The notes under the pieces: generated by a model
The model's input: the letters and a program-made list of their open reading frames with translations, nothing else
What the model was told of the DNA's origin: nothing
Database searches by the model: none
Assembly (NCBI RefSeq): GCF_021018745.1
Contig: NZ_CP063845.1
Location: forward strand, 2,294,001-2,358,000
Source: Gloeobacter morelensis MG652769
GTDB lineage: Bacteria; Cyanobacteriota; Cyanobacteriia; Gloeobacterales; Gloeobacteraceae
DNA length: 64,000 nucleotides
Reading direction: 5' to 3'
Program-made: the position numbers and the translations under genes
Shown: piece by piece, positions 1 to 2,554 of the stretch
Numbering within the stretch: the stretch's first letter is position 1
How the letters are laid out: the number at the start of each line of letters is the position of its first letter

Positions 1-1
1 G

Positions 2-934
2 TTCAGCATTGCCATCAGTCCCGACAGCCAAATGATTGCAACAGCTGGTGCGGACGGCAATGCCAGCCTCTGGCGACTCGACGGAACATTGTTGAAAAAT
101 TTGCAGGGCCATCGTGACAAAGTTTTCAGTGTGACAATCAGCAGCGACGGCAAAAAAATTGCGACTGCAGGTGCGGATAAAACGATCAGACTCTGGAGCA
201 TTTCTGGTGAGCTGCTTGGAGTATATCAAGGCCATCAGTTGAGTGTTGCCAGTGTTGTATTTAGCCCCGATTGCACAACGCTGGCTTCGGTAGGCATCGA
301 CGGTACCGTGCGTCTGTGGAGTTCAGATGGAACGGGGCGCGTCATTGGAGACCACACAGGGAGTTTGGAGGACATCCGTTTCAGTCCAGATGGACGAGTT
401 ATTGCTTCGGTGGGAAGCAGAGGAACGTTGCAGTTATGGAGTTCGATCTCAAACAGCAAATCCGCCTTCGTTGTCAGCAGTGGTTCGGTCAGACGAGTTG
501 CCTATAGCCCAGACGGCAAGCTTATAGCTACGGGCGACGTCGATGGCAATCTAAAACTTTGGAATTTTGATGGCTCAAGCCTCAGTGTTACTCTCTACAA
601 GGAAATTCCTGCCCATGAAGCTGAAATCCGCAGTATGACCTTCAGTTACGACGGTCAGTATATTGCAACTGCAAGTGCAGATGGTTCTACCCGTATTTGG
701 AAGAGCGATGGTTCTCGATACAAGATCCTTCTTGGCTCATCCGATGGAATCAACAGCGTTCGTTTTAGTTACGACGATTCAGCAATTGTGACGGCTGGTG
801 AAAATGGAATGGTCGAAGTCTGGGAGAACTGGAATACAAGCGAAGAAAATCTCCGCCGTACTGCCCGACAGTGGATCTGCCCTTTTGTTCTCAACAACAC
901 GGAACTTTCCGAAACGCTAGACGTAGGTTGCTAA
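2..934 (+). CDS. WD40 repeat protein, N-terminus outside window
   Basis: The reading frame is open from the window edge, so the start lies upstream and 310 residues are visible. About seven WD40 repeats can be read, each with a FSPDG-like turn, an (I/L)ATAGADG-like stretch and a closing (R/L)LW, for example near codons 50-60 and 95-105. Such repeats form beta-propellers used as protein-interaction platforms. No catalytic domain is visible, but cyanobacterial WD40 proteins often carry an N-terminal kinase or STAND NTPase that would lie outside the window. The base composition is AT-richer than most of the window and continues into the next two genes. Propeller identity is secure; the role is unknown. 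Confidence 0.85.
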   Translation, partial: FSIAISPDSQMIATAGADGNASLWRLDGTLLKNLQGHRDKVFSVTISSDGKKIATAGADKTIRLWSISGELLGVYQGHQLSVASVVFSPDCTTLASVGIDGTVRLWSSDGTGRVIGDHTGSLEDIRFSPDGRVIASVGSRGTLQLWSSISNSKSAFVVSSGSVRRVAYSPDGKLIATGDVDGNLKLWNFDGSSLSVTLYKEIPAHEAEIRSMTFSYDGQYIATASADGSTRIWKSDGSRYKILLGSSDGINSVRFSYDDSAIVTAGENGMVEVWENWNTSEENLRRTARQWICPFVLNNTELSETLDVGC

Positions 935-1012
935 AAATTGCCGGCGAGGGAGGCTCGAAGGCTCGATCCTTACTCAAGCGCAGAACATACACCTAGTGGT
1001 GAGGGAAGGAAA

Positions 1013-1207
1013 GTGGAAAGGGAAAAATTATCTAGGGTTGCAAACAGTTCTCAGACCGAAATTTTCGAAGCAACCCAGACGACTCAAGAAATTTATAGAA
1101 CGCTTCTTCAGTTAGAAAGCCTGGCCTTGCAGTTGGAAAAGGCGGATATTTTAGTGAAGATACCGGTAGAAGGTACAAGCTTCTGCAAATTCTACAAGCC
1201 CGACTAA
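1013..1207 (+). CDS. small peptide, candidate substrate of the adjacent radical SAM maturase
   Basis: A 64-residue frame opens with GTG at 1013, preceded by a purine-rich GAGGGAAGGA that could serve as ribosome binding site. The frame also extends back to a TTG at 938 (89 residues), which lacks such a site. The peptide has a polar, Gln/Glu-rich helical-looking middle with leucines and a distinct tail ending EGTSFCKFYKPD with a single Cys. It ends 39 bases before the likely start of a SPASM-type radical SAM enzyme on the same strand. Small genes in this position often encode ribosomally made peptide precursors, so the leader-plus-core reading is an inference from position. I recognise no named precursor family, and it could be a non-substrate small protein or non-coding. 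Confidence 0.45.
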   Translation: MEREKLSRVANSSQTEIFEATQTTQEIYRTLLQLESLALQLEKADILVKIPVEGTSFCKFYKPD

Positions 1208-1246
1208 TCTCCGATATTCTTGCGTAGCCCAATAACGAGTAAGTCA

Positions 1247-2554
1247 ATGCGTGAGTCTCGCTACAATGTGTGGATTGTCAATGGTGAATACCACTACGTC
1301 TTCAATGCGCTCAGTGGTTGCTTCATTCGCCTGACAGACGAGGAACAGCAATCCGTCGAAAAGCTGCTTGTGCAGGGTGTGTTGGAGTCCAACCATAATC
1401 TTGTGCAAAAACTCGTTGAGAATCGTATGCTTGTTGCAGACGCTCAAGACGAGCTGGCAACCCTCAATAGAAGATTTTTGTCCAGCCGCTACGATCGGCG
1501 CAGGTTTGCCCTGACCATTGTCACCAGTCTTGGCTGCAATTACGATTGTGCTTACTGTTATGAATTGAAGCAACCCTCGTTGATCGGCGACGATGTTGCG
1601 GAGTCCTTGCTTCAATTAGTTAACGAAAAAATATCGAACATTGAATCGTTTAAAGTCAGTTGGTTGGGTGGAGAGCCGCTCCTTGGCAAGGCCAAGTTGC
1701 TGGCCCTGTCCGAACAATTTATTGAGCGATGCGACCAACACAAAGTTACCTATAATGCCGATTTAACAACCAATGGATTTTTGTTAAACGAGCAAACCTG
1801 TATTGAACTGCATGATAAGAAAGTGCGATCGGTTCAAGTGACTCTAGATGGGCCTGCCCACATACATGATCGACGACGTCCTCAAAAGAACGGGGGCGCA
1901 ACTTTTTGGCGAATTATTCAAAACTTGCATCATGCTGTTCGCTATTTCAATGTGAATATACGCGTCAATGTGGACATGGAAAATATTGATAGCGTGGAAG
2001 CGCTATTTAGAACGTTGGAAGCCGAAGGATTCAGAAATAAACTGATGGTATATCCAGCCCAAGTCGTGGCCGTTGACGATGGCATTCCAGCTCCTTCTGC
2101 AACCTACAACTCTTGTTGTTTGAATAGGACTGCTTTTGCCAATACTCAAATCGACTTTTTAAAGCTCGCTGTAGGCTATGGTTTTGGCAAACCTTCGTTG
2201 CCAGGCCCGATCGGCACTAGTTGCACGGCAATGCGTACCAACGAGTTGGTTGTAGGCAGCAAGGGAGAACTTTATAAGTGTTGGGCTTCGATTGGCAATC
2301 CATCGGAAGTAATCGGTCATATTACCCACTACAAAGACAGCAACGGCAGGTTGCAGAAGTGGCTAAAATATGATCCGTTCTCAGATGAGGAATGCCGCAG
2401 TTGTATCGCATTGCCTGTGTGCATGGGAGGTTGCGCATACCACGCGATGGATCCCGTTCAGCACGACAACCGCTGCGACACCTTCCGCCACAACTACCGC
2501 GATCGGATCCTGGCCTATATCGAAGCGCAGGAGAAAAAAGCGGCGTCGCTTTGA
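1247..2554 (+). CDS. radical SAM/SPASM peptide maturase
   Basis: This 435-residue protein has the organisation of radical SAM peptide-modifying enzymes. Residues 1-85 form an N-terminal domain of the kind that contacts peptide substrates. The radical SAM cluster motif CNYDCAYC lies at about residues 97-104, binding the 4Fe-4S cluster that cleaves S-adenosylmethionine, followed by a GGEP motif. The C-terminal SPASM region has Cys in SCTA, YKCW, then EECRSC, LPVC, GGC and NRC, enough for auxiliary clusters. ATG 1247 was chosen over an in-frame TTG at 1220. The gene follows the small peptide gene, supporting a RiPP-type role. The exact chemistry (thioether, C-C link or epimerisation) cannot be read from the sequence. 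Composition is AT-richer than the downstream genes. Confidence 0.85.
   Translation: MRESRYNVWIVNGEYHYVFNALSGCFIRLTDEEQQSVEKLLVQGVLESNHNLVQKLVENRMLVADAQDELATLNRRFLSSRYDRRRFALTIVTSLGCNYDCAYCYELKQPSLIGDDVAESLLQLVNEKISNIESFKVSWLGGEPLLGKAKLLALSEQFIERCDQHKVTYNADLTTNGFLLNEQTCIELHDKKVRSVQVTLDGPAHIHDRRRPQKNGGATFWRIIQNLHHAVRYFNVNIRVNVDMENIDSVEALFRTLEAEGFRNKLMVYPAQVVAVDDGIPAPSATYNSCCLNRTAFANTQIDFLKLAVGYGFGKPSLPGPIGTSCTAMRTNELVVGSKGELYKCWASIGNPSEVIGHITHYKDSNGRLQKWLKYDPFSDEECRSCIALPVCMGGCAYHAMDPVQHDNRCDTFRHNYRDRILAYIEAQEKKAASL

Follow-up and report, generated by a model that had tools for sequence, protein, structure and literature searches.

A cysteine-tailed peptide, a SPASM radical SAM enzyme and an NLR-like caspase gene at a divergent Gloeobacter locus: a candidate RiPP-linked conflict system

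A short frame that directly precedes a SPASM radical SAM enzyme in Gloeobacter morelensis MG652769 raises two connected questions, i.e., whether the frame encodes the substrate of the enzyme, and what a modified peptide might do beside the large caspase gene that lies in front of it. The locus is found at the beginning of a 64,000-nucleotide stretch of contig NZ_CP063845.1 (positions 2,294,001 to 2,358,000; the window), whose coordinates are used below, negative positions lying before it. Four Gloeobacter genomes were compared, the present one (G000) and G001, G002 and G003, the Gloeobacter label of the relatives being read from their kin. The initial annotation had noticed the peptide and the enzyme; the membership of the caspase gene in the unit is a point absent from it. 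The features concerned are:

1 to 934, plus strand: WD40 repeats, the C-terminus of a 1703-codon caspase-nSTAND1-WD40 gene (Pfam)
1 to 2450, no strand: in-window part of a hyperdivergent AT-rich island comprising WD40 repeats, peptide and enzyme (nucleotide identity; pS saturated)
1013 to 1207, plus strand: putative RiPP precursor, 64 codons, GTG start (frame; similarity to the G002 peptide; ribosome binding site)
1169 to 1204, plus strand: putative core EGTSFCKFYKPD, with a single Cys (tail FC[KR]xY[KE]P common to the G002 peptide)
1247 to 2554, plus strand: SPASM radical SAM maturase with an N-terminal RRE-like domain, 435 aa (motifs, profiles, predicted structure)

Both frames that had been described ahead of the enzyme are present, the longer one running from 938 to 1207 (89 codons from TTG). 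The 64-codon version from GTG 1013 is the likelier product, since the homologous peptide of the nearest species, G002, has its start at the equivalent position, with AGGAGG ahead of it; GAGGGAAGGAAA 5' of GTG 1013 is a ribosome binding site. The peptide ends in FCKFYKPD, and its tail would be the modified core. The G000 and G002 peptides align along their length, with a common segment LE[SA]LA..LEK ahead of the common tail, and their local alignment score of 59 exceeds the maximum of 48 in 1000 shuffles; the window peptide is therefore more than a chance frame. A similarity search with the 64-aa peptide in nine relatives returned itself and one chance match only, and profile searches matched it to no model in Pfam or NCBIfam.

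In the corresponding slot, G001 encodes a peptide of 111 aa with five Cys, G003 one of 110 aa with two Cys and a signal-peptide-like start, and a more distant Streptomyces relative one of 60 aa with two Cys. Similarity of these three to the window peptide is not significant (p 0.04-0.5), and homology is therefore not claimed; their equivalence would rest on position, size and Cys content and composition, and is not convincing by sequence. The G001 peptide carries Lys at +3 of each of its five Cys (CxxK units), an arrangement matched by 0 of 200000 core shuffles, and a Cys-bearing small frame occupies the slot upstream of the enzyme in all five clade members with upstream DNA available. The expectation of the initial annotation, that a small Cys-tailed peptide would be kept beside the enzyme in relatives with a variable core, was borne out when co-occurrence was examined, the precursor being significantly conserved between G000 and G002 only and positionally in the others. 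Together with the complete SPASM enzyme and its RRE-like fold, the similar G002 peptide and the Cys-bearing peptides in the relatives' slot make the pair very probably a RiPP locus. Two further cyanobacterial precursors (L091 10270-10632 and L011 693-1187) resemble the G003 peptide in style: they lie beside related enzymes, start like signal peptides and have CDGGG...C cores.

The likely start of the enzyme is ATG 1247, in line with its orthologs, and not TTG 1220. It carries CNYDCAYC (CxxxCxxC), and its SPASM cysteines, complete as first described, are invariant in 19 homologs; with 54 bits against a cut-off of 27 for the SPASM domain (TIGR04085), it is a RiPP SPASM maturase in the general sense. 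The closest family models align over its whole length and likewise have a small Cys peptide directly upstream, but the enzyme scores below all their cut-offs: 285 bits versus 525 for TIGR04463, 268 versus 600 for Clo7bot (TIGR04334), 201 versus 600 for CefB (NF038107), none of which it joins as an equivalog, and 180 versus 400 for the geopeptide maturases (TIGR04280). Moreover, its putative substrate has a one-Cys core instead of being Cys-rich, and a caspase-nSTAND-WD40 partner is present. The suggestion that the peptide falls in no named RiPP class thus holds insofar as the precursor matches no model, but "undescribed class" was too strong, because the enzyme has kin in these four families, though below cut-offs.

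An AlphaFold model of the enzyme (pLDDT 87) has an N-terminal domain of three strands and three helices in RRE order, predicted to bind the leader; no RRE sequence model of Pfam matched, the assignment being structural only. The nearest PDB folds are TigE and CteB (5why, 5wgg). CteB, the SCIFF/thermocellin maturase and a maker of Cys thioethers, is the best solved structure by both sequence and fold, including the N-terminal RRE-like domain, although identity in the fold alignment is 18-19%, the precursor differs, and the SCIFF maturase model gives the present enzyme 87 bits versus 425. There is good support for the general class, a maturase of Cys peptides guided by a leader. A Cys thioether of the ranthipeptide kind (Cys to a non-alpha carbon) would be the bond to which enzyme kinship and Cys core, and these only, point.

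Enzyme identity is 70% to G002, 55% to G003, 54% to G001 and 47% to Streptomyces spiralis; of the named entries in the genome collection, the MAG Aphanocapsa lilacina HA4352-LM1 comes closest (70%). The enzyme groups with its close relatives, which also score below the family cut-offs, in a clade with strong support (100/99) that excludes the remaining 22 sampled homologs. No further close relative was found in 393 Streptomyces and 366 actinobacterial genomes, and viral contigs held no relative of the enzyme. Many distant relatives have a small Cys-bearing peptide upstream, some with a single Cys. The clade, a subfamily not yet curated and with a minimal substrate of one Cys, is useful for working out the reaction. 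A plasmid of Methylomagnum ishizawai (L053 2819-4858) encodes CefA, a "Cys-every-fifth" precursor of 679 aa in which long repeats that look folded come ahead of the Cys array; its neighbours are a TIGR04463 enzyme, a 2OG oxygenase and a radical SAM C-methyltransferase. Upstream of a more distant enzyme homolog (L046, G004:C116), two nearly identical precursors of the GG-leader type stand in tandem, and their short tails contain Cys (MSCFCNAK and QQCFCKPS).

The gene upstream of the peptide starts at about -4177 (contig C1, 2289823), outside the window. Its protein matches the caspase domain (PF00656, 1.1e-11), nSTAND1 (PF20703, 7.7e-122) and WD40 repeats (5.6e-126), and the His/Cys dyad of the caspase is intact (YFCGHG and DACHSG). 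It has the NLR-like layout of a caspase with its dyad, a STAND NTPase and a repeat sensor. The order caspase gene, peptide, enzyme is kept in 4/4 Gloeobacter genomes, with a stop/start overlap as ATGA in G001 and with the peptide start and its AGGAGG inside the end of the caspase gene in G002. A DUF427 gene follows the enzyme in three species; in G003 it lies ~850 kb away, and yet the trio is kept. Of two further genomes, G005 has a caspase ortholog together with a fragment of the enzyme at the end of a contig, whereas G004 has neither the ortholog nor a close enzyme. Beside the distant enzyme homologs, no caspase, nSTAND or WD40 gene was found except in G235, where a caspase-nSTAND gene 6.5 kb from the enzyme homolog, with opposite-strand genes between, was taken as coincidence. 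A third caspase-nSTAND-WD40 paralog of G000 (L069, G000:C1 3173076-3174605 and beyond) looks truncated, with 1154 codons versus 1672 in G001.

The initial annotation had taken peptide and enzyme to be AT-rich and acquired together. Both are AT-rich (GC 0.45-0.50 at the locus versus ~0.63 for the window), but the tract that shares a history is WD40 repeats, peptide and enzyme, not the pair alone: the AT-rich stretch also spans the WD40 part of the upstream gene, and third-position GC falls from ~0.8 to ~0.45 near the WD40 start. This 3.5-kb island begins at about -1150 (about 1.1 kb before the window) and runs to about 2450. Among G000, G001 and G002, DNA identity is 0.47-0.76 inside it, versus 76-99% in the caspase-nSTAND part and 82-98% after the enzyme; between G000 and G001, no alignable DNA was found from -975 to 2222. 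Synonymous differences per site (pS) are saturated in the WD40 part and most of the enzyme (0.65-0.87), reach 0.71-0.88 in the peptide and 0.58 in the last third of the enzyme (G000/G002), and compare with 0.18-0.47 in DUF427 and 0.02-0.70 in caspase-nSTAND, where they climb toward the WD40 boundary.

The explanation that divergent WD40 repeats are a general habit of such genes was rejected: three enzyme-less caspase-nSTAND-WD40 paralogs (A, B and C) of the same species are conserved over the compared parts, with pS largely 0.04-0.27 (one bin 0.36), 0.18 or less in the WD40 region without a rise, and no island. Low GC in the WD40 part is found in paralogs A and C as well. Selection on the protein has little effect on synonymous sites, and the island is therefore best read as replacement by diverged alleles, the exchanged unit being sensor, peptide and maturase; this cassette would either be extremely divergent or have been exchanged between species of Gloeobacter. 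Such joint exchange is the strongest sign of a shared function, as it suggests that the three parts work together. The island may reflect only one or two exchange events, as the species pairs share history, and how frequent such islands are along the window could be measured to a limited extent, synteny with G001 and G002 breaking beyond ~11-17 kb.

From the observed gene order, domains, catalytic residues, linkage and cassette divergence, we infer that the peptide is modified, by what chemistry, and with what it pairs. The reading that we prefer, to which we give about an even chance, is that a polymorphic RiPP cassette is coupled here to an NLR-like caspase, the modified peptide being the partner of the operon's own WD40 sensor. 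The three genes would form one operon, which would supply an NLR-like NTPase equipped with a protease effector, a RiPP precursor that is short and Cys-tailed, and a SPASM maturase carrying an RRE. After binding the leader, the maturase would probably crosslink the core Cys (FCKFYKPD) with a residue close by; a ranthipeptide-like thioether is the most likely bond. The product would be a specific partner of the WD40 sensor, either as ligand or as restraint of the caspase. Because of this pairing, sensor, peptide and maturase would vary as one allelic cassette, beneath which the caspase-NTPase effector would stay constant. The complete SPASM enzyme, the G002 homolog, the CxxK array of G001, the kept gene order and the island count for this proposal, whose evidence base is four loci of one genus only. 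Against it count the distant enzyme relatives without a caspase, nSTAND or WD40 neighbour, the TPR gene that takes the place of the caspase gene in the Streptomyces relative, and the signal-like start of the G003 peptide, which would route it away from a sensor in the cytoplasm. More tentatively, the cassette might serve polymorphic recognition: the radical-SAM-modified peptide would be the cognate self ligand of the NLR-like caspase, and repeats, peptide and maturase would be inherited and exchanged as one allele, such that only matched sets hold the caspase off (or turn it on).

It is possible, though doubtful, that the locus is an ordinary ranthipeptide-like one, whose peptide is modified, exported and active outside the cell as an antimicrobial or signal, the caspase gene being a long-standing neighbour without a role. 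Distant relatives of the enzyme fit this explanation, since their loci are plain Cys-peptide ones that lack a caspase and in some cases include C39-like peptidases or transporters; the signal-like start in G003 keeps the explanation alive. However, the linkage to the caspase gene was kept where other neighbours changed, the genes overlap, and the border of the island lies inside the caspase gene; a secreted product would leave linkage and border unexplained, and none of the frames read in the vicinity of the locus encodes a peptide exporter.

An unlikely alternative is that the caspase serves in maturation, cutting off the leader or cutting between units of the modified peptide, with the NTPase-WD40 part gating cleavage. 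Cleavage after Lys or Arg is common among bacterial caspase-like enzymes, and these residues adjoin the Cys units in the G000, G001 and G002 peptides; the dyad is intact, and among the frames read beside the precursor there is no other protease gene. Yet the caspase domain is constant and the peptide and WD40 part vary, although a cutting domain would be expected to follow its substrate, and an NLR-like protein of 1700 aa would make an odd leader peptidase. That the small frame is no precursor at all, i.e., a chance frame or plain small protein beside an enzyme acting on something else, agrees with the lack of significant similarity outside G002, but is very improbable in view of the G000/G002 score above all shuffles, the Cys-bearing frame in the same slot of 5/5 clade members and the regular CxxK array.

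The preferred reading, a cassette paired with the NLR-like caspase, has a parallel in the FxSxx peptide systems, in which a SPASM enzyme is linked to conflict systems of the STAND/TPR and vWA-MoxR types (Kaur et al., 2020; PMC7159879); the same paper describes a radical SAM enzyme proposed to modify a peptide effector. Common to both are a small, fast-varying precursor and a SPASM enzyme linked to conflict proteins. However, the window peptide lacks the FxSxx-COOH tail and the enzyme scores 49 bits versus 370 with FxsB (TIGR04269), so that the locus is not a member, and a caspase-nSTAND1-WD40 protein is present instead of TIR/AP-ATPase/TPR and vWA-MoxR proteins. Bacterial caspase-nSTAND-WD40 proteins and fungal NLRs share the effector-NTPase-repeat layout and a fast-varying repeat sensor, but here a RiPP precursor and its maturase lie within the sensor's variable cassette. 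Our literature searches turned up no description of a RiPP cassette joined to a caspase-nSTAND-WD40 gene, only the notes on FxSxx and radical SAM enzymes in PMC7159879. By analogy, the locus is best read as a putative RiPP-linked conflict system on a plan akin to FxSxx, from which it differs in NTPase, effector and sensor.

The locus bears on the role of modified peptides beside bacterial STAND/NLR-like proteins, those of FxSxx and its kin included, and on the targets sensed by the WD40 parts of bacterial caspase proteins. The three close species provide natural allele swaps at a fixed locus, such that matched and mismatched pairs of peptide and sensor are directly testable. In the Streptomyces relative, the TPR protein that follows has the FxSxx TPR family as its best NCBIfam match, below cut-off, which is a hint. 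This locus (L020 5662-8350 of Streptomyces spiralis), a member of an otherwise Gloeobacter-only enzyme clade, looks horizontally acquired: with its two-Cys peptide and TPR gene, it has 52-54% GC in a high-GC genome and lies near an IS110-type transposase and a contig end.
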